From contig JASHNQ010000014.1 of the NCBI GenBank assembly GCA_030041545.1, positions 1-52,305 on the forward strand: a DNA stretch of 52,305 bases, given 5' to 3'. Positions 2,230 through 24,348 of the stretch are shown piece after piece (positions within the stretch are counted from its first letter, which is position 1; every line of letters starts with the position of its first letter). Made by a program: the position numbers and the translations under genes. This DNA is from a candidate division FCPU426 bacterium. Lineage in GTDB: Bacteria > Oederibacteriota > Muellerivitia > Muellerivitales > Muellerivitaceae. Under the pieces are notes generated by a model, which saw only the letters and a program-made list of their open reading frames with translations, ran no database searches and was not told the DNA's origin.

Positions 2230-3645
2230 TCACTGGGAATTTTCCCCTTCCGGCACCAACCCCTCATGGTGGGTCGTTTCCAATTTTTGGATGAGGTTCT
2301 TGATGTCGTAATTGTTGGGATCGAATTCCTCTGCCTTGTGGGCTTCGTAAAGAGCCTCGGCGATTTGATCCTTCTGAAAATCCCTAACACCTTGGTCATA
2401 GTACTTTTGGGCGTCCTCCAGCATGGGCCGGGCCGTCACGGTCCATTCGTTGCAGGAGTATTTTTCCTGCCCACCGACCACGGAGCGGATGATGATATGG
2501 TAGGGAACCCCGTTTTTAGCGCCCTTTAAAAGGCAAAACTTCGTCTGGAGCAATTCCTGCTTCGCCCGTTGGAAGTCCTTCTCGTCGCCGCTTCGGATAT
2601 AAACCAAAAAACCCTCGGCCTGGCTCCCTTCCGGGATGTCCCATTTCAAGTAAATTTCCCCGTCGCCCACGAGGGATTGGACCATGTAGGGTTTCGGTTC
2701 CGGTTTCCCCCCTCCGGCGCTGAAATAGTAGCTGGCCGAAAGTCGGTGGTTGTTGCCCAGGTCCGGGTGGTTGGAGTAAGCGTAATCCACGGACCAATCC
2801 GTGACGCGGTAGCTGGCGCCTACGCTAAACTCGCCGGGCAGGGTGATGAAGCTGATGAACCCGGCCCGAAGGCCCAGCCTCCCGTCGAAAAACCAGTGTT
2901 CCACCCCGCCCCGCAACCGCACGTCTTCCCCGCCAAAAAGGGCGTCATTGGAGAGGGTCCAAGGTATGTCGGAGGAAATCAAGGTATAAGGATCAAACAG
3001 GTAGGCGAACCCCAGCGTCAGGACGGAGGGAATGGATTGTTCCTCGCCGGTGCTGTCATAACGGACTGTCGTGGAAAGGTCGGTCAGCGCCAAGCCGGCC
3101 TTGAATTCGGTATTGTCCTTGAAGGGTTGGCGGTACAGCAACCCCAGGTCCACACCCGCGCCCTCGATGTCCCCCACCCCGCCGCTGCCGGTATTGGAGA
3201 AAAGGTATTTGAAATTGGCGCCGAGCAGAAGGCGCTTGCCCGTCACGAAATCGACGGGAATGGCCACCGATCCGGCGTATTGGTCTTCCTCCGCCCCCGG
3301 GATATCCGTGTAAAACAAATCGTTCAAGCTGACGGCCAAATGGATGTCGTCGGGCAGGGGGTATTGGAATGAAAAATAAAGGTTCCGGTTTTTGTCGTTA
3401 AGGTAGGAACCGTACATGCCAAGGAGTTCGGCTTGGTCCAGTTGCACCAAGCCGGCGGGATTCCAGTAGGCCGCGCTGGCGTCATCCGCCACCGCCACGA
3501 AGGCCCCGCTCAAGCCCATGGCGCGGGTGCCGACCCCAAGGATGCCGCCTCGGTCGAAGAGGGCGAAGGAGGGGGAAACCGCGAGATAAAAGAGGACCGC
3601 CATCCCCACAAGCCGGGCCGGCGAAATTGATTTCATGGAATACAT
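2230..3645 (-). CDS. PorV-like outer-membrane barrel with FN3 and TPR-like tail
   Basis: The 471-residue exported protein has a signal peptide (LVGMAVLFYLAVSPSFA) followed by the start typical of PorV/PorQ-type barrels: GVGTRAMGLSGAFVAVADD then AAYWNPAGL. Residues to about 310 alternate as beta-strands and should form an outer-membrane barrel of the FadL-like/PorV class. After a linker (SAGGGKPEPKP), residues of about 320-410 look like a fibronectin type III domain. The last 60 residues (DAQKYYDQGVRDFQKD, then EALYEAHKAEEFDPNN) form a TPR-like helical pair. It follows the giant lectin gene by 34 bases on the same strand and is probably co-transcribed with it. Two other PorV-type barrels occur in the window. 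The start at 3645 lacks a good ribosome binding site; the in-frame ATG at 3636 is the alternative. Confidence 0.8.
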   Translation of the reverse strand: MYSMKSISPARLVGMAVLFYLAVSPSFALFDRGGILGVGTRAMGLSGAFVAVADDASAAYWNPAGLVQLDQAELLGMYGSYLNDKNRNLYFSFQYPLPDDIHLAVSLNDLFYTDIPGAEEDQYAGSVAIPVDFVTGKRLLLGANFKYLFSNTGSGGVGDIEGAGVDLGLLYRQPFKDNTEFKAGLALTDLSTTVRYDSTGEEQSIPSVLTLGFAYLFDPYTLISSDIPWTLSNDALFGGEDVRLRGGVEHWFFDGRLGLRAGFISFITLPGEFSVGASYRVTDWSVDYAYSNHPDLGNNHRLSASYYFSAGGGKPEPKPYMVQSLVGDGEIYLKWDIPEGSQAEGFLVYIRSGDEKDFQRAKQELLQTKFCLLKGAKNGVPYHIIIRSVVGGQEKYSCNEWTVTARPMLEDAQKYYDQGVRDFQKDQIAEALYEAHKAEEFDPNNYDIKNLIQKLETTHHEGLVPEGENSQ

Positions 3646-3679: not shown

Positions 3680-6600
3680 TCAATGAATGACGCATACCTT
3701 CACGGTTTTATTCAGTTGTTGCCCGTTCGAGGGGTCAACCCCGTCAAGGACGGCCAAGTAAAGGCCGGACGAAATAATTTGGCCCCCAAAATTCCTCAAG
3801 TCCCAGGAAGCGGCTCCAGCGGAGAGGCTTACAACCCAAACCAATTCCCCGTCGGTGGAGTAGATCTTTATTTTACTTTGGTTGTCGGCGGGTATTCCAG
3901 CAAAAGAAGCGGCGAAGTCGACCGTGCCGCCCTGGTGGACGATGTTGGGATAAGCCACCAAAGACACCTCTTGTCCGTGGAACGTGGCAATGAAGGCATC
4001 CCTTTCCAGTTGGACGGAATCCCCGTCGGTCGTGTGCTCTGTCATGACGAAGTGGTAAAAGCCGTTGGGCACCCATCCTCCGTTATCCGTGGTTGCGTTC
4101 CACTCGACCACTGCCTGGCCGTTCAAATAGACCGTAATCGTCCCACCCGGGCCGCTGGAATTCGGGGCAAAGCTTGAAAGGGTCATAGCAAAGGTCGTAC
4201 TGCTGGAAAAGGCTAGAGACCCGTTGAGGCTGTCCACCCATTCCCCTTGATCGTTGTAAATATTAACCACCTGGAAGGCGGTGCCCGATGTAGCGGTAGC
4301 CGCCGGGGTGAAGGTGATGGTGGGAGTCAAAGTCATGGTGGGTGTGAGGGTCACCGTGGCCGTAGTGGTCATGGTCGCGGTATTCGTCAGGGTGCGGGTC
4401 GGCGTCAGTGTGGCGGTATTGGTCGCCGTGAGCGTGGCGGTCGGTGTATTGGTGAACGTAGTGGTCGGCGTGATGGTGGCGGTATTCGTGGTTGTGTTAG
4501 TCGCCGTAAAGGTATTGGTTGGTGTGGCGGTGGCTGTATTCGTAGCCGTGCTGGTGGCCGTAAACGTGTTGGTCGGGGTGCCGGTGGCCGTATTCGTGGC
4601 GGTATTCGTCGCCGTGAACGTATTGGTTGGTGTATCAGTGGCCGTGTTTGTAGCGGTGTTGGTGGCAGTAAACGTGTTGGTCGGGGTGGCGGTAGCGGTA
4701 TTCGTTGCCGTGTTGGTGGCCGTGAACGTATTAGTCGGAGTATTGGTAGCGGTGTTCGTTGCCGTGTTGGTTGCGGTAAACGTGTTAGTCGGAGTATCAG
4801 TGGCCGTATTCGTGGCCGTATAGGTAGCTGTAAATGTGTTGGTCGGAGTCGCGGTGGCGGTGTTCGTTGCCGTGTTGATCGTAGTGAACGTGTTAGTCGG
4901 TGTGTCAGTGGCCGTGTTCGTGGCGGTGTTGGTGGCCGTAAACGTATTAGTTTGAGTATTGGTAGCAGTGTTAGTCGCTGTACTGGTAGCAGTAAATGTG
5001 TTGGTCGGGGTGGCGGTGACGGTGTTCGTTGCCGTGTTGGTGGCCGTGAACGTGTTGGTCGGTGTGTCAGTGGCCGTGTTAGTAGCCGTGTTAGTAGCTG
5101 TAAACGTGTTGGTCGGTGTATTGGTGGCGGTGTTGGTAGGTGTAAAGGTGTTAATCGGAGTATTCGTAGCAGTATCGGTGTCTGTAGAGGTCGCCGTGTT
5201 CGTGGCCGTGAACGTATTAGTTGGAGTATTGGTAGCAGTGTTAGTAGCTGTATTGGTGGCGGTAAATGTGTTGGTCGGGGTATCGGTGGCGGTATTTGTA
5301 GCGGTGTTGGTCGCCGTGAACGTGTTGGTCGGGGTATTAGTGGCCGTATTCGTGGCCGTGTAGGTAGCTGTAAATGTGTTGGTTGGGGTGGCGGTAGCGG
5401 TATTTGTGGCGGTATTGGTAGCCGTGAACGTATTAGTCGGAGTATTGGTAGCGGTGTTCGTGGCAGTATTGGTCGCAGTGAACGTGTCGATCGGCGTATC
5501 GGTGGCCGTGTTCGTGGCGGTGTTGGTGGCTGTGAAAGTGTTGGTTGGAGTGTTCGTAGTAGTATTCGTGGCGGTGTTGGTCGCCGTAAATGTGTTAGTC
5601 GGTGTATTGGTGGCGGTGTTCGTAGCCGTGTTGGTGGCAGTGAACGTGTTGGTCGGCGTGTTAGTAGTAGTATTCGTGGCCGTGTTGGTGGCGGTGAATG
5701 TATTCGTCGGCGTGTTAGTCGTCGTATTTGTCGCGGTGTAAGTAGCCGTGAACGTGTTGGTTGGAGTGTTCGTAGTAGTATTCGTAGCCGTATTGGTCGC
5801 CGTAAATGTGTTAGTCGGTGTATTGGTGACGGTGTTCGTGGCCGTGTTGGTGGCAGTGAACGTGTTGGTCGGCGTGTTAGTAGTAGTATTCGTGGCGGTG
5901 TTGGTCGCCGTAAACGTGTTGGTTGGAGTGTTCGTAGTAGTATTCGTAGCCGTATTGGTCGCCGTGAACGTGTTAGTCGGTGTATTGGTGGCCGTATTCG
6001 TGGCTGTGTTGGTGGCCGTGAAGGTGTTGGTTGGCGTGTTCGTAGTAGTATTCGTGGCGGTTTTAGTCGCTGTGTTGGTGGCCGTATTGGTGGCGGTGTT
6101 CGTAGTTGTATTTGTGGCGGTATTAGTCGCAGTATTCGTAGCAGTATTGGTAGCCGTGTTTGTGGCTGTTTTCGTGGCAGTAGGGGTGGCAGTATTGGTT
6201 GGAGTGCTTGTAGGAGTGCTGGTTGCTGTGGGAGTCGGGTTGCAATACCAATAAAATTCGGCGCCCAGGATATCCGAATATTCATTGTTACCTCCCGTTA
6301 TGGTATAAGCCAGTGAGTAGGCGGTATTTGACGCGCCGGCCATCTGATAATCCCCTTCCCAACCCCGGTTGGTGCCTACAGTTGCCCATGCTTGGGTCGC
6401 ACTTGTGGTGGTTATGGTTTCTGCGGCATTATCATCCGCATAGCCAACAATCAGTGAGTCGGTACCCAACGTGGTTAGTGTTGTAGAAGGGTCGTTTGAT
6501 TTTGCCGCCGTTGAAGACACAACCGTGGCTCCTAGGGGCGAAGTTTGTGCCACACCCGTAAAAACCATGGCTGCCGCCGCGGGGACGGAATTTCTGCTTA

Positions 6601-8254
6601 ATGTCGCCTGGATGGTTTGGGCGCCCGAAAAAACGCTTGAACCCGGCAAATAGTAAATCCAGCTGCTATCCGTAGTGTGCGGACCATCAACAGACACAGC
6701 GACGTTTAAATTGACCGTAGTGGTGCCATTGGTATCCGTTACATTCCCGGTAATATTGGCGTTATTATCCGCCCCGATTTCCACAACCAGCAGGGGGTTC
6801 TCGGCCACGACTGCGGCCGAGATGTTCAACGGAAGGGTGATGGTCTCCGTATTAGCGCCGTAAAGTGTGATGGCCTCAGAAGCCGCATTGTAACCCAAGG
6901 TAGCGCAAGGCGTGGGAGTCGAGGTAGGGGTAGGAGTCGATGTATTGGTGGGGGTATTCGTCGGAGTGAACGTCCACGTGGGAACCGGCCCGATGCACGA
7001 AAGGGCATAAATGGAATAATTGTTCGTGCCCGAGGCTTCACCGCTGCCCTTATCGGTATAAGGATCTTGCATTGAGTTATAAGGTCCCCCTGTAATGGAC
7101 TCAGAATATTCCGTGCCGCCCGTGTTGTAGGGGATATCCGCGGTGGTGCCGGTAAAATAAAATTCAAGCCAGTAACTGCCGACCGGAAGGGCCGTTGCCG
7201 GAACCTCAAGCTGGTTCCATCCGGTTGCCACGGCCGTTTGCTGGCTTTCAACAAGGAGGCTGCCGGGAACCCCTCCGTTGTTGGCGTAGATTCCCAAAAC
7301 ACACGTGGCGGCGTTGGCGGTGCTAACGTAAACGTCCATTGCGGTTACGGTGGCGCCACTTGAAAAAGTGTAAAGGTCGCCGTCTTGGCGGTTCACCTCG
7401 TTGGTGGTCCCGGCGGTTCCTGCAGTCGTCAAGCCAACCGTTTGGGGGGATGAACAGGCGGGTGTGGGGGTTGACGTCAGGCACGGCGGAGGAAAGACAT
7501 ACTGGGTCGTTTCATCACCCCCGGTCCCCGCCGTGAAGCCGTAATAAACGACCGTCGCTCCCCCAAAAACGTCATCTATCAGGTCGCGGGTATAAACCAT
7601 GGATTGGGGGGTTCCGTTGGAATCCACAATGGTAAAAGTCAGGGTCTGGGGATTACCGGCCGAGGCCGCGGGGGAAAAATTGACGGTTACGGCGTGGTTG
7701 GAGGTTTCGAAAATGCTGGTGGTAAAGGAATAAGGGCAGGAATCGCCCCCGGTGACGTATTGGCAGGTATTGGTGGGCGGCCCGGTGCCCGCGCCGTTTT
7801 CGTCGGTTTCCAATAGGCCATCCCCATAATTCGTCGCGTAGGTGTTCAAGGTGAACGCGACCGACGGATCAATGGGAAGGATGCCGGAATAGCCTAAACA
7901 AGCGCCGCAAGAAGTGCCGTTCCCACTAATGGCGGAAAGTCCCCGTGGATCGTCTTGGAGGACGAACGCGATGCCATCCGCACCGCCGGTCGTTCCAACG
8001 TTATAAGTCATGGTGATGCTGAAGGACGAAGTCAGGGTAACGGGAGTGGTGTTCCAGCAGGCGCCGCTTTCCCCTCCTCCATCGCCCGTCAGGGTAACGG
8101 TGCCATCGGGACCTGCAGCGGCATCCCCCACCAACGCCCAGTTGGGACAAACCTGAGCTTGGGTCCGGGAACCATGCCCCATTAAAACAAAAAGCAAGAT
8201 CGTAAAAAGAAACAGCGATTTCTTTCCACGGAACCACGAGCGAGCTGGGGGCAT
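3680..8254 (-). CDS. Giant secreted L-type-lectin-like Thr-repeat protein with T9SS-like C-terminal domain
   Basis: From the ATG at 8254 the protein has 1524 residues, beginning with a basic signal peptide (MPPARSWFRGKKSLFLFTIL) with likely cleavage after TQAQ. An earlier in-frame ATG at 8365 would add 37 hydrophobic residues and is less likely. Domains in order: an L-type (legume-like) lectin fold of about 230 residues (FSITMTYNVG, GADGIAFVLQDDPRG, Cys-rich loops); a second beta-sandwich (GDLYTFSSGATVTAMDVYV); a short TPT linker; a third beta-domain; about 650 residues of Thr-rich repeats; and a C-terminal region of about 200 residues with FlgD-Ig / type-IX-sorting features (VVNIYNDQG, YPNIVHQGG, KIKIYSTDGELVW, SSGLYLAVLDG). 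It is predicted to be surface-exposed, perhaps glycosylated on Thr, and carbohydrate-binding. Function is inferred from fold only. Confidence 0.8.
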   Translation of the reverse strand: MPPARSWFRGKKSLFLFTILLFVLMGHGSRTQAQVCPNWALVGDAAAGPDGTVTLTGDGGGESGACWNTTPVTLTSSFSITMTYNVGTTGGADGIAFVLQDDPRGLSAISGNGTSCGACLGYSGILPIDPSVAFTLNTYATNYGDGLLETDENGAGTGPPTNTCQYVTGGDSCPYSFTTSIFETSNHAVTVNFSPAASAGNPQTLTFTIVDSNGTPQSMVYTRDLIDDVFGGATVVYYGFTAGTGGDETTQYVFPPPCLTSTPTPACSSPQTVGLTTAGTAGTTNEVNRQDGDLYTFSSGATVTAMDVYVSTANAATCVLGIYANNGGVPGSLLVESQQTAVATGWNQLEVPATALPVGSYWLEFYFTGTTADIPYNTGGTEYSESITGGPYNSMQDPYTDKGSGEASGTNNYSIYALSCIGPVPTWTFTPTNTPTNTSTPTPTSTPTPCATLGYNAASEAITLYGANTETITLPLNISAAVVAENPLLVVEIGADNNANITGNVTDTNGTTTVNLNVAVSVDGPHTTDSSWIYYLPGSSVFSGAQTIQATLSRNSVPAAAAMVFTGVAQTSPLGATVVSSTAAKSNDPSTTLTTLGTDSLIVGYADDNAAETITTTSATQAWATVGTNRGWEGDYQMAGASNTAYSLAYTITGGNNEYSDILGAEFYWYCNPTPTATSTPTSTPTNTATPTATKTATNTATNTATNTATNTATNTTTNTATNTATNTATKTATNTTTNTPTNTFTATNTATNTATNTPTNTFTATNTATNTTTNTPTNTFTATNTATNTTTNTPTNTFTATNTATNTVTNTPTNTFTATNTATNTTTNTPTNTFTATYTATNTTTNTPTNTFTATNTATNTTTNTPTNTFTATNTATNTATNTPTNTFTATNTATNTTTNTPTNTFTATNTATNTATDTPIDTFTATNTATNTATNTPTNTFTATNTATNTATATPTNTFTATYTATNTATNTPTNTFTATNTATNTATDTPTNTFTATNTATNTATNTPTNTFTATNTATSTDTDTATNTPINTFTPTNTATNTPTNTFTATNTATNTATDTPTNTFTATNTATNTVTATPTNTFTATSTATNTATNTQTNTFTATNTATNTATDTPTNTFTTINTATNTATATPTNTFTATYTATNTATDTPTNTFTATNTATNTATNTPTNTFTATNTATNTATATPTNTFTATNTATNTATDTPTNTFTATNTATNTATGTPTNTFTATSTATNTATATPTNTFTATNTTTNTATITPTTTFTNTPTATLTATNTATLTPTRTLTNTATMTTTATVTLTPTMTLTPTITFTPAATATSGTAFQVVNIYNDQGEWVDSLNGSLAFSSSTTFAMTLSSFAPNSSGPGGTITVYLNGQAVVEWNATTDNGGWVPNGFYHFVMTEHTTDGDSVQLERDAFIATFHGQEVSLVAYPNIVHQGGTVDFAASFAGIPADNQSKIKIYSTDGELVWVVSLSAGAASWDLRNFGGQIISSGLYLAVLDGVDPSNGQQLNKTVKVCVIH
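4285..6245 (-). repeat. 54-bp tandem repeat array encoding Thr-rich 18-mers
   Basis: Within the giant gene, about 29 units encode variants of PTNTFTATNTATNTTTNT (18 residues, 54 bases). Every second residue is Thr. Position 16 varies among T, A, V and position 17 among N, D, A, G. One unit is expanded to 22 residues and one shortened to 14. The array is flanked by less regular TPT/TNT sequence on both sides. Stop codons are so rare in it that long spurious open frames appear on both strands. Copy number may be misassembled. Confidence 0.9.
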
Positions 8255-8410
8255 AAATGAATGAATACAAAAATGGGTAAGCAAACATAGCGGGGCTAAA
8301 ACCGCGATAGTTGGAATAACGTTAAAACAAAAAAATGAAAAGCTTTCCAAGATCTGACCCTTCATCTGGATGAAAAATTAAGTAAAACAGTTAACCTTTG
8401 TTTTTATTTA

Positions 8411-16936: not shown

Positions 16937-17860
16937 TCAATACCATAAAAGCAGTCCGAACAAACTGGAACTGGCGATGAAGCTGGAACTGACCTCGGCG
17001 GGATGCCAAGTGTAGCCCAACTCGTATTCCAACCTTCCAAGGTTATAGCGCAACGCGGCGCCCGCTGAAAAACCACCCTCCAGGTCGCCCGACTCGCTGA
17101 ACCGGTAGCCGGCGCGAAGGGCCAGGATACTCCGGTGCCAATACTCCGCGCCGACCGACGCCTGCGTGCCCTCGTCGTTCACGTAAAGGACCTCTCCGGC
17201 CGCCAAAAGGGTGGAATCCGGCGACACGATCAGGGGCCGGGCCGCGCCCAGCCGGAAGGTCAGGGGCAGCGGATCGGAGCCCTGGGGATCGGGTTGATAT
17301 TGGACATTCGGGCCTATGTTTTGGACCACCGCCGCCAGGTCCGTATCCAAAAGCAGCACCTTAAACCCCACGTCGAACGCATTGGTGAAGGCCTGCTTAT
17401 CCCCCAGGGTCGACACGATAGTCTTGAAAGCGCCGCCCACGGCGATTTTCCCGAACTGCTGGCCGTCGGCAAACGTCACGACCACGTCGCTGGCCGAGAC
17501 GGGCGGGTCCGTTGCCAGGGTGTTCTCAATGGGGGGCATGTGCCGGTAAACGACTTGGAAACCCAAATTGCCGTAGTTCTTGGTGGGAACGGCCGCGCTC
17601 AACGCCTCGATTTCCACGTCCGCGATGTCTTCCATGTGGTCGATCCCCAAGCTGTATTTGGAGATGCGGGCCAGGCCGGCCGGGTTGTAATCGATGACAT
17701 AGACGTCATCCCCCAAGGCCGAATAAGTCCCGCCCAAGGCGGCTGGCCGTACCCCGATAGGAACCTCCAAGATGTCGGCCCCGCTGGTTCCAGCTTGTTG
17801 GGCCCCTAAAGCACCGGCAAGGAGGAAGAAAACCGATAAGGGGAGAAAAACACGCTTCAT
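16937..17860 (-). CDS. PorV/PorQ-like outer-membrane protein
   Basis: The 307-residue protein has a signal peptide (MKRVFLPLSVFFLLAGALGA) and then the PorV-type opening: SGADILEVPIGVRPAALGGT, ALGDDVYVIDYNPAGLARI. The remaining length is a run of amphipathic beta-strands, ending with an aromatic residue (SLFGLLLWY) as outer-membrane barrels do. In the type IX system PorV carries cargo from the translocon to the attachment complex. Here the family match gives location and fold, while the export role is inferred. It is the last gene of the envelope operon, 46 bases after the TonB-receptor-like gene. Confidence 0.82.
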   Translation of the reverse strand: MKRVFLPLSVFFLLAGALGAQQAGTSGADILEVPIGVRPAALGGTYSALGDDVYVIDYNPAGLARISKYSLGIDHMEDIADVEIEALSAAVPTKNYGNLGFQVVYRHMPPIENTLATDPPVSASDVVVTFADGQQFGKIAVGGAFKTIVSTLGDKQAFTNAFDVGFKVLLLDTDLAAVVQNIGPNVQYQPDPQGSDPLPLTFRLGAARPLIVSPDSTLLAAGEVLYVNDEGTQASVGAEYWHRSILALRAGYRFSESGDLEGGFSAGAALRYNLGRLEYELGYTWHPAEVSSSFIASSSLFGLLLWY

Positions 17861-17906
17861 TGAAGCAAGCTAGCATGGTGCCCGTAAAGGGGTCAAGAAA
17901 ACCCTT

Positions 17907-19486
<1,580 letters not shown>

Positions 19487-19549
19487 CGATCAAACCGCAT
19501 TGTACTGAGGAAACCTTCAAATAACACGCGGCTCGTCTTTCGAACCCCG

Positions 19550-21334
19550 TCAATTCTGGCTGAGTTTTTGGATGGACTGAAGCTTGACCATGGCCTTGTT
19601 GATATTGCTTTGGGCGTTGATGTTGCCCGGGTCCTCCTTCAGGACTTCCCGCCATTTTTCAATGGCCTCGTGGATTTTCCCGTTGATGTAAAGGTCGACC
19701 CCGTCATAGTAAAGGGCTTTCACTTTTTCCGCGTCCACTTTTTCCTGGGATTGCTGACCGGTCATGCGCTTGACATAGTCGTTAGCCGTATCGTCGTCGG
19801 ATTTCAGCCGCAAGACTTCTTGGAACTTGGCCTGGGCCTTGTCCTTGTCTCCGTTTTCATAAAGGGAGATGCCGTCGGCATCCAAAGCCTTCACTTTCAC
19901 GCTGATATCCTTTTGTATGCGGAAAAATGCGGTTCCGATTTCGTCATTACCCGGAGCCAGATCCTTAGCCAGCGAAATGGATTTTTGGGCATCTTTCAAG
20001 TCACCTTTTTTATAGGCTTTCAACGCCTTAGCGTAAACCGCGTCCACTTGGCTGCTTTGTTTGGAAAGCAATTTCCTCAATTTCGACCTCACCAGGGAAT
20101 TAGGGGGGTCGATTTCTTTCGCCTTGTTATAGCTGGCCAGGGCGTTGGAATAGTCCTGCTCCTGGTAATATTGGTCCCCTTCCGTGAGCAACGCCTTGAC
20201 GCGGGAAAGGCGGTTGATCCTCAGGGTCTTGATGGCTTTTTGCGCCTTTTCATTGTTGGGATCCATGGTTAAGGCCAAGTTCCATTCATTGAGGGCTTGG
20301 AGCGTGTTGCCTTTTTTAAGGTAGGCCCTGCCGTTTTCGTAATGCAAGTCCACTTCCCTGCTTAACTTGGACTTGGCTTCGTCGATAAAACCCTGGGCCT
20401 GCTTATTGTCCGACTGGAGGGCAAGGACCTTTTGGGCCTCCGACATGGCATCCGAATATTGGCTGTTCAACATGAAATTACTGGCTTTCTCCAAATGGGC
20501 GTTGACGGCGTCGTCGATGGCCTGGGCCTGGCCCACGGCGGCGTTGGAATCCTTGGGATTGACCTTGAAGGCATTGCCGAAGGCTGTGGCAGCCTCGTCA
20601 TAGGAGGCGTTGTCGTGGTAAGCCACCCCTAAATCATAATAGGTCTCATCCAGGGAATCCGCGTCCTGGTCTTTGGGGGCCAGGGCGGTTTCCAGTTGGA
20701 TCGACTTCTTATAGGCGTCGATAGCCTTGTTGAAATCGCCCAGATTGTAGTAAGAAAAACCCAGGTATTTGTTGATTTGCGGGTCGTTCTGGAGCTTCAG
20801 GGCCGAATTCCAGTCGGCCGCCGCGCTTTTATAGTCCTTTCCTTGGAAGGAAATAAAACCCAAGTTCCTATAAGCGAAGAAACTTTTCGGGTCCGCCTGG
20901 AGCACCTGTTTTAAGGCCGCTTGCGCTTCCGGGTATTTTTTCTCGGTGAGGTAAACTTTGGCCTGGCAAGAGGGCAGGATGCGCTTGGCGTTGGGTTCAT
21001 CCGGAATGAGTTTCAAGGTGTTTTGGAAATGCTTCGCCGCGGAAGAATAATCTTCCTTGGAACTGGCGATCATTCCCTCGCACAGCTCGAGATAACCCCT
21101 GGCGTCGGTGTCCTTGGAATTCAATTGCGCGCATTTTTGAAATTCGGGAACCGCCTGATCGAACTTCTGGTCGTTCAGGTAGGCAAGACCGAGCTTAAAG
21201 TGGGCCGTTTCGTTGTTGGGGTCCGCCTTGATGGCCTGCAAATAAATGGCCTCGTTGCCCGAATCCTGGGCCACGGCGCAAAACGGGACTAGGAAAAAGG
21301 CGAAAAAAGGAACCAGGACCTTTATTTTTTCCAT
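19550..21334 (-). CDS. Periplasmic TPR-repeat protein
   Basis: The 594-residue protein has a signal peptide (MEKIKVLVPFFAFFLVPFCAVA) and then roughly a dozen tetratricopeptide repeats, such as NNETAHFKLGLAYLNDQKFD, YFAYRNLGFISFQGKDYKSA-like segments, YYDLGVAYHDNASYDEAATA, HYENGRAYLKKGNTLQAL and YYDGVDLYINGKIHEAIEKW. ATG 21334 is used because AGAGGA precedes it by six bases; a longer frame to 21427 would overlap the upstream gene. It should form an extended helical scaffold for protein contacts in the periplasm. It follows the TPR/PD40 lipoprotein gene by 14 bases, and tRNA-Gly lies 63 bases beyond its stop. Confidence 0.85.
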   Translation of the reverse strand: MEKIKVLVPFFAFFLVPFCAVAQDSGNEAIYLQAIKADPNNETAHFKLGLAYLNDQKFDQAVPEFQKCAQLNSKDTDARGYLELCEGMIASSKEDYSSAAKHFQNTLKLIPDEPNAKRILPSCQAKVYLTEKKYPEAQAALKQVLQADPKSFFAYRNLGFISFQGKDYKSAAADWNSALKLQNDPQINKYLGFSYYNLGDFNKAIDAYKKSIQLETALAPKDQDADSLDETYYDLGVAYHDNASYDEAATAFGNAFKVNPKDSNAAVGQAQAIDDAVNAHLEKASNFMLNSQYSDAMSEAQKVLALQSDNKQAQGFIDEAKSKLSREVDLHYENGRAYLKKGNTLQALNEWNLALTMDPNNEKAQKAIKTLRINRLSRVKALLTEGDQYYQEQDYSNALASYNKAKEIDPPNSLVRSKLRKLLSKQSSQVDAVYAKALKAYKKGDLKDAQKSISLAKDLAPGNDEIGTAFFRIQKDISVKVKALDADGISLYENGDKDKAQAKFQEVLRLKSDDDTANDYVKRMTGQQSQEKVDAEKVKALYYDGVDLYINGKIHEAIEKWREVLKEDPGNINAQSNINKAMVKLQSIQKLSQN

Positions 21335-21348
21335 GTCGTCCTCTTGGA

Positions 21349-22563
21349 TCACGGGCTGGTGGGGGCCGAAACGTCCAAAACCAGCAACTCGTCGGTTGTT
21401 TTTTGGGGGGCGTCCGCCTGGCGGCAACGGATCATCGTGCCGTCAGTCGACCATGACAGGTCGGCAGTATAGTCAAGCATTTGATGGGTTTTCAACAACT
21501 GTTTGTACCCGGCCCCATCGGTGTTCACCAGGCATACTCTCCCTGCGTAAACATACGCGATCTTGTTCCCTGCGGGATGGCAGGCCGGGTGGATTCCCAA
21601 GTCCGAACTTTTGCTGTAAAAAAGCGTTTGGGTGGCTTGGGTGCGCACGTCGGTTTTCAGGAGCTTCCGTTTTTTCCCCCGGGTCTGCCAGTAAACGAGG
21701 CACCGGCTGTCCGGCGACCAGGCCGGGAACTCCGCCCCAATGGTCTGACTCAGGATATGGAAAACCGCATCGTCGCTCTTGGGGGAAATTTGTGCCACAT
21801 AGAGGTAATACTTGCCGTTGGCCGCTCGTTTTCGTTCGGCCAAACAACTTCCGTCCGGGGACTGCAGGACCCCACCATCCTGGGCGGCAGGCAAAAAATC
21901 CCCTTCGTTGCTTTTGTTGAAGGGCACTTCGTTTTTAAGGACAATCCAATCGACGCTGGCCTGGGCAATTTCGGTCGCCCTCCGGGCGCGATCGGATAAG
22001 GAATCGAGCTTTGCTCTCGTCTCAGCCTGGATGAAGACCAAGGGAAAAGTCTTATAAACGTTATCCAAGGCTTCCTCCGTACCTTTGTAATCCTTCTGGA
22101 AGAACAGCGCCGTGGCCGAAGTATACTGGGCTTCGATCAGGGACTGGATGGAATCCCGCATCTGGCTATTTTCCATATAACGGTCATAAGCCTTTTGGTT
22201 ATAGACCATGGCCTGGGCCGGATCCTTGAGTTTGTCGTGGTATAAACTGGCCAAATCAAGGAGGGAATGAAGCTCTTCGTCCGTCCGGGGAAAATCCTGA
22301 ACCACTTTTTGATACCACTGGATGGCGGAAGCATAGTCCGACTGGGCCTCGTAATCCTTAGCGATACGGTAACAAACCCTGGGAGCCAGCACCGACCCGG
22401 GATGGTGTTGCAGGTAATCCTGGTAGGACTTGATGGCTTCGGAGGTTTTCCCGGATCCATCCAAGTCGGCGGCGGCTTCAAAGGAGCCACCCAGGTATTG
22501 ACATCCGCCTAAAAAAGCCAGGAAAAGGGCCACTGGGGGAAAAAAGGGGATGGATTTGATCAA
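21349..22563 (-). CDS. TPR/PD40 lipoprotein (PorE/BamD/TolB-like domains)
   Basis: The 404-residue protein has a lipoprotein signal (PFFPPVALFLAFLGGC, Cys at residue 21). Residues 30-190 hold BamD-like TPRs (EAIKSYQDYLQHHPGSVLAP, DYASAIQWYQKVVQDFPRTD). From about residue 215 the C-terminal half contains PD40/TolB-type propeller motifs: GGVLQSPDGSCLAE, EFPAWSPDSRCLVYWQ, IHPACHPAGNKIAYV, ADLSWSTDGTMIRC. TPR plus PD40 is also the core of the type IX component PorE, whose OmpA domain is absent here but present in the upstream gene. The start is TTG at 22563 with a poor ribosome binding site, 30 bases after the preceding stop. Confidence 0.82.
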   Translation of the reverse strand: MIKSIPFFPPVALFLAFLGGCQYLGGSFEAAADLDGSGKTSEAIKSYQDYLQHHPGSVLAPRVCYRIAKDYEAQSDYASAIQWYQKVVQDFPRTDEELHSLLDLASLYHDKLKDPAQAMVYNQKAYDRYMENSQMRDSIQSLIEAQYTSATALFFQKDYKGTEEALDNVYKTFPLVFIQAETRAKLDSLSDRARRATEIAQASVDWIVLKNEVPFNKSNEGDFLPAAQDGGVLQSPDGSCLAERKRAANGKYYLYVAQISPKSDDAVFHILSQTIGAEFPAWSPDSRCLVYWQTRGKKRKLLKTDVRTQATQTLFYSKSSDLGIHPACHPAGNKIAYVYAGRVCLVNTDGAGYKQLLKTHQMLDYTADLSWSTDGTMIRCRQADAPQKTTDELLVLDVSAPTSP

Positions 22564-22593
22564 TTTGGGTCGGGCCTTTCCTTGGGTATTTGA

Positions 22594-24348
22594 TTATTTG
22601 GTAATGATGACGATATCCACACGGCGGTTTTTGCTGTGGGCCTCTTGGGTATCGGCCGTGTCCAAGGGAGCGGCCGAGCCATGGCCGCGTGAATAAAGAT
22701 TATCGGGCGAAACTTTTCCCTTTTCCACCAAATACCTCAAAACCTCGTCGGACCTGTTCTGGGAATAGGAAAGTGCCCGCCTCTCGGGGCCCTCGTCCGG
22801 ATCGGCGTGGCCCTCGATATAAACCCGGCAATTGGGATATTTGCGGATAAGTCTCGCCACTTGGTCCAGGTAACTCTCGAAGGAGGGGCTGAGGTGCGAG
22901 CTCTTTTCGGCGAAGGGAACGCTGGGCACCTTCAGGACACCTGACATTCCCAAGGGCCGGAGCGACTCGGGGATGGAAGGCGCCGTGAAAACCTGGGGCT
23001 CCATGGCCATGGACGCCAGGACGGGGGCCTCACGGGAGGAAACTTTGGCCACCTTGAAGATGGGGTCGCTGGCCACCACCTGCTGGCCGCGGACGTCCAC
23101 GGTCCGCAGGTTGTAGTTGGCGAAAATTCCCCCAGTAACGATGTTGCCGCTGCTATCTTTCCCGTCCCAGGCGATCTGGCGAGGGGGTATGCCTTTTCCA
23201 CTATAGGTCCTAAGGACGTTGCCCTGGGGGTCGGTGATTTCCAGCGTCCAATTCTTGATGTCCGTCCGGGCCTGGGGTTTGATATCAAAGGTGGCCTGCT
23301 TGAGGGTTCCTGTCTGGACGTCGGAAATTTGGGGCTTGATTTCCACCTCCTCCACTTTTTGCGCCTGGGCCAGGGAGTCGGCCTGGCTTTCTCCCGTTCC
23401 AAACCGGTAAGTCAGGGAAAAACGTTGGGTATCCCCGAGGACCCCGAAGGGAACCAGGGCGTAATCCAGTTCAAATCCGGAAAATTGTATTCCCGCTCCC
23501 ACCGAAGCACCCGTAGCGCCGCCTAAATCCTCCTCCGAGGGATTAAAGCTGTAGCCGCCTCTCGCCGATAACGCAAAGGATGGGTTTCCCCAAACCAACT
23601 CCCCGCCGGTGTCCACGATGGCATCATTATCAATGGGTTTTTCAAGGTCCACCCCCACGAGGAAATGAAAAGGATTTTGGGGCTGGAAACGGTAGGCCAA
23701 ACCCGCGCGGTAAATAAGGGGCAGGGATTCCTGGGCGGAATAATCGGAAAAGTTCGAAAGCTGCCCAAGGTTTTGAACCGATAGGCCTAAAGTCCAATCC
23801 TTGCTCTTGGTGTAAAGCAACAGGCCCGCGTCCATACCCCCGCCGAAAGCGGAATAAGTGACTAAATTGCTGGAGATGAATTTGCCCCCGATCCCCAAGG
23901 CGAAGTTGTCCCCAAAGGTCTGGCCAAAACCGACGGCTACGGCCAGGTCATTAGCGCTTCCGGGAATGGCGGAAGGATTGTTCGTGGAATTAAAGCTCGG
24001 TACAAAATCAAAGGCGCCGCTTAAGCCCAGCGTACTGCCCGGCTGCAGGGGCAAGGCCGCCCCTAGGTACTCGTAATCGATGTCGGCAAAATAAAAGAGC
24101 TGAAGCGCGCTGATCTCAGGATGATTCAACTGGGCCAAACCCGCCGTGTTCCAAAACATCGTGCTGACGTCATCAGCCACGGCCGTGAACATCCCCCCCA
24201 TCCCCGCGCCGCGGACGCCAACCGGGATTTCCAAGAATTGGACCCCCGTGGTACTGATGCCCTGGGAAAAAGCGGTAAGAGGAAACAATAGAACAATGAA
24301 AGCAACAAGAGCGTGGGCGTGCTTGGAAAATAAGGGCTTAAAATTCAT
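22594..24348 (-). CDS. PorV-like barrel fused to FlgD-Ig and OmpA domains
   Basis: The 584-residue protein has three parts. After the signal peptide (HALVAFIVLLFPLTAFSQ), residues 30-320 form a PorV-type barrel (VQFLEIPVGVRGAGMGGMFT, MFWNTAGLAQLNHPE). Residues of about 340-430 match a FlgD-type Ig fold (WTLEITDPQGNVLRTYSGKG, IAWDGKDSSGNIVTGGIF). The last 130 residues are an OmpA-type peptidoglycan-binding domain (VYIEGHADPDEGPERRALSY, QNRSDEVLRYLVEKGKV, KNRRVDIVII). The barrel is thus anchored to peptidoglycan by its own tail. It heads the envelope operon behind a strong promoter. I know of no standard T9SS component with this order of domains. Confidence 0.88.
   Translation of the reverse strand: MNFKPLFSKHAHALVAFIVLLFPLTAFSQGISTTGVQFLEIPVGVRGAGMGGMFTAVADDVSTMFWNTAGLAQLNHPEISALQLFYFADIDYEYLGAALPLQPGSTLGLSGAFDFVPSFNSTNNPSAIPGSANDLAVAVGFGQTFGDNFALGIGGKFISSNLVTYSAFGGGMDAGLLLYTKSKDWTLGLSVQNLGQLSNFSDYSAQESLPLIYRAGLAYRFQPQNPFHFLVGVDLEKPIDNDAIVDTGGELVWGNPSFALSARGGYSFNPSEEDLGGATGASVGAGIQFSGFELDYALVPFGVLGDTQRFSLTYRFGTGESQADSLAQAQKVEEVEIKPQISDVQTGTLKQATFDIKPQARTDIKNWTLEITDPQGNVLRTYSGKGIPPRQIAWDGKDSSGNIVTGGIFANYNLRTVDVRGQQVVASDPIFKVAKVSSREAPVLASMAMEPQVFTAPSIPESLRPLGMSGVLKVPSVPFAEKSSHLSPSFESYLDQVARLIRKYPNCRVYIEGHADPDEGPERRALSYSQNRSDEVLRYLVEKGKVSPDNLYSRGHGSAAPLDTADTQEAHSKNRRVDIVIITK

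Follow-up and report, generated by a model that had tools for sequence, protein, structure and literature searches.

A predicted surface lectin with a threonine-rich stalk and a type IX-like C-terminal tail, encoded next to a PorV-family barrel in a candidate division FCPU426 bacterium

Type IX secretion systems (T9SS) have been placed in Bacteroidota and possibly in other FCB phyla, with stated absence elsewhere (PMC11285876), and recent papers confine them to Bacteroidota or the FCB superphylum (PMC11285876, PMC12618676). In F. johnsoniae, the gene of a type B cargo protein is commonly followed directly by that of a PorP/SprF shuttle (PMC12618676). The locus described here belongs to a window (the whole stretch of DNA analysed, 52,305 nucleotides) from a candidate division FCPU426 bacterium, and its central gene most likely codes for a T9SS cargo protein: an adhesin that a divergent type IX secretion system would deliver to the cell surface, with its lectin domain on a stalk and a PorV-family protein as carrier. 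We assign this reading a probability of about 0.7. What the sequence itself shows is the order of the domains, the family of the tail, a homologue of the channel, a conserved linkage to the carrier gene and selection on the Thr register; we infer export, anchoring, sugar binding, glycosylation of the stalk and the carrier role of the downstream PorV-family protein. To reach the surface, the lectin protein would be exported by Sec via its signal peptide, and in the periplasm it would be recognised through its tandem FlgD-Ig/CTD tail and taken across an SprA-like channel by a PorV-family carrier, for which the product of the directly downstream gene is the most likely candidate. Once at the surface, the long (Thr-X)n stalk would keep the L-type lectin domain off the outer membrane for glycan binding.

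The lectin protein and its N-terminal domains

The protein exists, and its domain layout is the one given by the original prediction, which named about 1520 residues and left the strand unstated. The minus-strand ORF at 3680-8365 has 1561 codons, with 8365 as the first possible start; position 8254 is Met38 of this ORF, and a start there yields 1524 aa with an ordinary-looking signal peptide that reads ...LLFVLMGHGSRTQA up to the cut and QVCPN after it. Judged by eye from the sequence, the protein thus carries the Sec signal peptide expected of a T9SS cargo. Its features are as follows (residues numbered along the ORF).

3680..8254, minus strand: lectin-stalk-CTD protein, 1524 aa plus stop; the originally predicted coordinates match Met38
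8156..8254, minus strand: signal peptide ending TQA, with Q after the cut; residue pattern read by eye
7466..8155, minus strand: L-type (legume-like) lectin domain, aa 71-300; PF18483 at E=1.8e-22, PDB 7elv at E=4.6e-34, fold TMt 0.68
6956..7465, minus strand: domain 2, beta-rich, aa 301-470; related domains in other genomes of the phylum, structure model
6230..6910, minus strand: domain 3, beta-rich, aa 486-712; structure model
4331..6229, minus strand: stalk of (Thr-X)n type, aa 713-1345; alternate residues 99% Thr
4466..6031, minus strand: array of 29 18-residue (54-bp) units inside the stalk; TRF and unit alignment
3980..4282, minus strand: FlgD-Ig-like domain, aa 1362-1462; PF13860, 29.4 bits vs 27
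3683..3973, minus strand: T9SS CTD-like C-terminal domain, aa 1465-1561; CHU_C, TIGR04183 and PorZ models, PorU/PorZ in PDB

Regarding the residue that follows the signal peptide, a Gln stands right after the AxA cleavage site, by eye, in the lectin protein and in nearly all CTD-bearing ORFs with a visible signal peptide (loci L052-L071). Gln after cleavage is the Bacteroidetes Q-rule (PMC5837995). Over all ORFs, a home-made signal-peptide finder, too crude to carry a conclusion, gave Gln at +1 in 17% vs 4% background.

Scans of the whole protein against Pfam and NCBIfam returned no family, probably because of the low-complexity stalk, and the domains were therefore scanned one by one. The predicted L-type lectin was recovered in this way: aa 1-296 score 80.7 bits against PF18483 (cut-off 78.3), and a PDB search with a profile of seven lectin relatives recovers 7elv, the lectin domain of Methanocaldococcus jannaschii, at the E-value listed above. 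The domain thus combines a profile match over the curated cut-off with a lectin fold. In the fold search, the lectin model aligns with 7elv at a TM-score of 0.68 on the target, with further matches to plant lectins and to the surface proteins SraP, YwfG, Pls and SasG; because overall confidence of the model is low (58), the modelled fold is taken as support for the sequence evidence, not as a substitute. Both the Asp of GGADGI and Asn108 are invariant in the lectin alignment, but where 7elv has VEVDT the window lectin has FTLNT. On these residues, sugar binding by the domain would be plausible. The two further beta-domains of the original prediction are both beta-rich in the structure model, with domain 3 better supported than domain 2, and family scans of the two gave nothing above cut-off. 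The lectin domain or domain 2 also occurs internally in runs of adjacent large ORFs elsewhere in the phylum (G024:C21, 1.7-21.7 kb; G043:C108).

The PorV-family neighbour and the secretion machinery

The PorV-type barrel predicted immediately after the lectin gene is found there, its gene beginning 34 bp after the lectin gene and its 471-aa product scoring 97.1 bits against NF033709 (cut-off 90). The core exporter was expected within the window at 16.9-24.3 kb and is located elsewhere: a 2026-aa SprA/Sov homologue, scoring 209.5 bits against a cut-off of 200, is encoded on contig C104, so that an SprA/Sov-type outer-membrane channel is recognised in the bacterium's own genome. The cluster in the window is accessory envelope machinery at most.

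2230..3645, minus strand: 471-aa barrel of the PorV/PorQ family, extended at its C-terminus; candidate for a dedicated carrier, by NF033709 and adjacency in G027
16937..24348, minus strand: PorV-family barrel, 582-aa protein, TPR protein, TPR/TolB-like protein and PorV-FlgD_ig-OmpA fusion, by family scans

The subfamily cut-off of NF033709 is exceeded by three proteins of the window, which places PorV-family carriers there, and the PorV equivalog model is reached by none of the window's PorV-family proteins. Gene order in genome G027, which represents a second species, is the same, with the lectin gene, a PorV-family gene (79% identical) and purA (88%) in succession and a gap of 5 bp between the first two; in G025, the contig breaks off inside the lectin gene. 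Among the tandem-tail ORFs examined, a PorV-family neighbour is present in 2 of 42, namely those of the window and of G027, and 400 kb of control stretches contained a single PorV-family match. The pairing is therefore unusual and specific. Since 40 of the 42 lack such a neighbour, it is no family rule, and the notion of a PorV partner for every tandem-tail protein was rejected. By analogy, the window pair looks like the cargo/shuttle logic of type B, with a PorV-type barrel instead. Elsewhere in the genome, PorV-family genes abut proteins with a different C-terminal tail (L061, 5428-11477, minus strand; L070, 2477-6140, plus strand), and the tail of the L061 protein resembles, by eye, the canonical YPNPF tail of type A.

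Across the phylum, 40 of 45 genomes, and 24 of the 25 good ones, have a recognisable member of the SprA family. A profile built from eleven of the phylum's SprA sequences matches SprA (6h3i) at 1e-15 over positions 119-803 of 819; single-sequence PDB searches with the SprA homologue and with PorV produced no T9SS match. At locus L066 on C104 (3183-7931 and 7895-13975, minus strand), the sprA homologue is adjoined by the gene of a 1582-aa protein with a PorZ-like/FlgD-like tail, and upstream lie a histidine kinase and a LytTR response regulator. Searches for GldL, GldM and the C25 sortase (PF01364) recognised none of them, and the match to the PorU model is confined to its tail part. The GldM model was likewise silent in a control set of 8 named genomes that included several relatives of Bacteroidota, and so was the C25 control; with controls that either failed or gave noise, the absence of GldL, GldM and C25 was set aside as evidence.

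The cluster at 16.9-24.3 kb comprises two PorV-family barrels (one of them fused), two TPR proteins and the 582-aa protein. The fused barrel (22594-24348, minus strand) joins a PorV-family barrel to FlgD-Ig and an OmpA peptidoglycan-binding domain, an unusual combination of carrier and anchor. The 582-aa protein (17907-19655, minus strand) reads by eye as a TonB-receptor plug followed by a barrel and has no family match; a relative 32% identical to it adjoins a PorV-family gene in G025.

The C-terminal tail, the stalk and rival readings

The C-terminus was originally likened to T9SS type A sorting or FlgD-Ig domains, and the broader part of that claim has stood. YPN, KIKIYSTDGELVW and SSGLYLAVLDG are all present; the last 200 residues pass the FlgD_ig cut-off, as the only Pfam family to do so in the tail, and they match the PorZ model, in its C-terminal part, at 31.1 bits. 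The outcome on which the prediction was to be given up, a tail matching neither FlgD-Ig nor T9SS profiles, is thus not what the scans returned. Strict type A membership did not stand: TIGR04183 reaches only 19.2 bits (cut-off 23) and CHU_C 25.9 (cut-off 27), the lectin gene is not among the matches of a PF18962 search of its own genome, and type B models do not figure among the matches listed for the tail. A profile of the tail family finds PorU 6za2 (1.9e-5), FlgD (1e-4) and PorZ 5m11 (2.8e-4) in the PDB. The tail model (pLDDT 83) has PorZ and PorU among its best fold matches, beside RbmA and other Ig-like proteins, at modest TM-scores.

The prediction was likewise to be given up if no other protein of the genome shared the tail, and a BLAST search with the tail as query finds it in at least 20 further ORFs; in nearly all of these, the aligned region runs to the last residues of the protein. 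A CTD-like Ig fold at the extreme C-terminus is therefore common to many proteins of this genome. In an alignment of ten tandem tails, the PN, GE and SG-Y positions are invariant, and the tail profile matches all 45 phylum genomes, with 5-53 matches each.

In an alternative on function that is compatible with the same export route, the lectin protein would have a structural role, in a matrix or in the manner of an S-layer: its Thr stalk would form an extended fibre, and its lectin would bind polysaccharide of the bacterium itself and not the surface of a host or prey. Many paralogues do combine Thr-X linkers with the same tail, and the biofilm scaffold RbmA is among the fold matches of the tail; the N-terminal regions of these paralogues differ, a variety more in keeping with diverse binding roles than with a single structural unit used repeatedly, and we regard a matrix function as possible and on balance unlikely.

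The second alternative concerns export itself. The tail could be a mere Ig-like spacer, or a domain contacting wall or outer membrane, in a protein exported by another route, with the SprA homologue serving other cargo. FlgD-Ig is a generic extracellular module, found also in flagellar and other proteins, and the profile results can be read accordingly, given that FlgD_ig is the sole Pfam family over its cut-off, that the strict T9SS tail models remain below theirs and that the fold search also brings up unrelated Ig-like proteins such as RbmA. Against this, the tail forms the extreme C-terminus of many large proteins that are otherwise unlike one another, and it co-occurs with SprA across the phylum. 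It is also the best conserved part of the lectin protein (66% between G000 and G027, vs 53% for the lectin), with the PN, GELV and ASGLY motifs kept. A spacer role is thus considered improbable, and T9SS export of a surface adhesin is retained as the preferred reading.

For the stalk, the predicted number of about 29 Thr-rich 18-mers proved accurate: from aa 779 onwards, 29 units follow one another directly, each of 18 residues and of the form TNTFTATNTATNTATNTP, with a mean nucleotide identity of 76% and TRF scores of 1298-1447, far above chance. The underlying rule is a dipeptide, Thr occupying 99% of alternate positions over 633 residues. Diversity in the Thr codons is 0.59 at the third position and 0.00/0.02 at the first/second, and the codons of the X positions have first/second diversity of 0.18/0.12. 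The G027 ortholog has a longer stalk without the 18-mer, in which Thr is still found at 98% of alternate positions. These codon and ortholog comparisons show selection on the Thr register while length is free, and this fits an extended, perhaps O-glycosylated spacer. That low-complexity DNA has merely expanded neutrally into the 18-mer array, leaving the array functionless as such, as the ready expansion of tandem repeats and the variation of array length and 18-mer register between species might suggest, is very unlikely in view of a Thr register maintained despite third-position diversity and, in G027, even without the 18-mer. The plus-strand ORF at 4247-6316 (689 aa), antisense to the Thr repeats, is probably a repeat by-product and a likely false gene call, and does not count as evidence of a gene.

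Significance and comparison with described systems

In a single-gene purA tree with weak support, the phylum is not grouped with Bacteroidota, Chlorobiota, Ignavibacteriota or Balneolota. We tentatively suggest, as a proposal that may well prove wrong, that a small uncultured phylum possibly outside FCB has a divergent T9SS, composed of an SprA-like channel and PorV-family carriers with no recognisable Gld motor or PorU sortase, together with 5-53 tandem FlgD-Ig/CTD tail matches per genome and a lectin paired with its own PorV-family carrier. With the channel in nearly every genome of the phylum and the cargo tail in every one, the group would offer a test of the minimal machine and of the need for the Gld motor, and the lectin gene with its PorV-family neighbour constitutes a candidate one-to-one pair of cargo and carrier.

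The closest solved relative, the archaeal lectin domain 7elv of M. jannaschii, belongs to the same lectin family, and the comparison is limited to the lectin domain, which is all that the PDB entry contains. Type A T9SS cargo (TIGR04183/PF18962; the uncleaved CTDs of PorU and PorZ) likewise has an Ig-like beta-sandwich at the extreme C-terminus, and as in type A systems the tail is common to many secreted proteins in a genome with SprA and PorV relatives. Unlike type A cargo, the window tail has a second FlgD-Ig-like domain before the CTD and lies below the TIGR04183 and CHU_C cut-offs, and no PorU/C25 sortase is recognised here, in a search whose control was silent as well. The type B cargo of F. 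johnsoniae shares the arrangement of a surface adhesin gene (here predicted) with the gene of a barrel carrier directly downstream, whereas its carrier is the PorP/SprF shuttle and the candidate carrier of the window is of the PorV family. Like SraP, the serine-rich repeat glycoprotein adhesin of S. aureus, the window protein combines an L-type lectin with a very long Ser/Thr-rich stalk and, here by prediction, surface display. SraP differs in being Gram-positive, exported by accessory Sec and anchored to the cell wall, and the two lectins are related by fold only. Among Gram-negative bacteria, the lectin-stalk-tail protein would accordingly parallel the glycan-binding adhesins of the SraP type.
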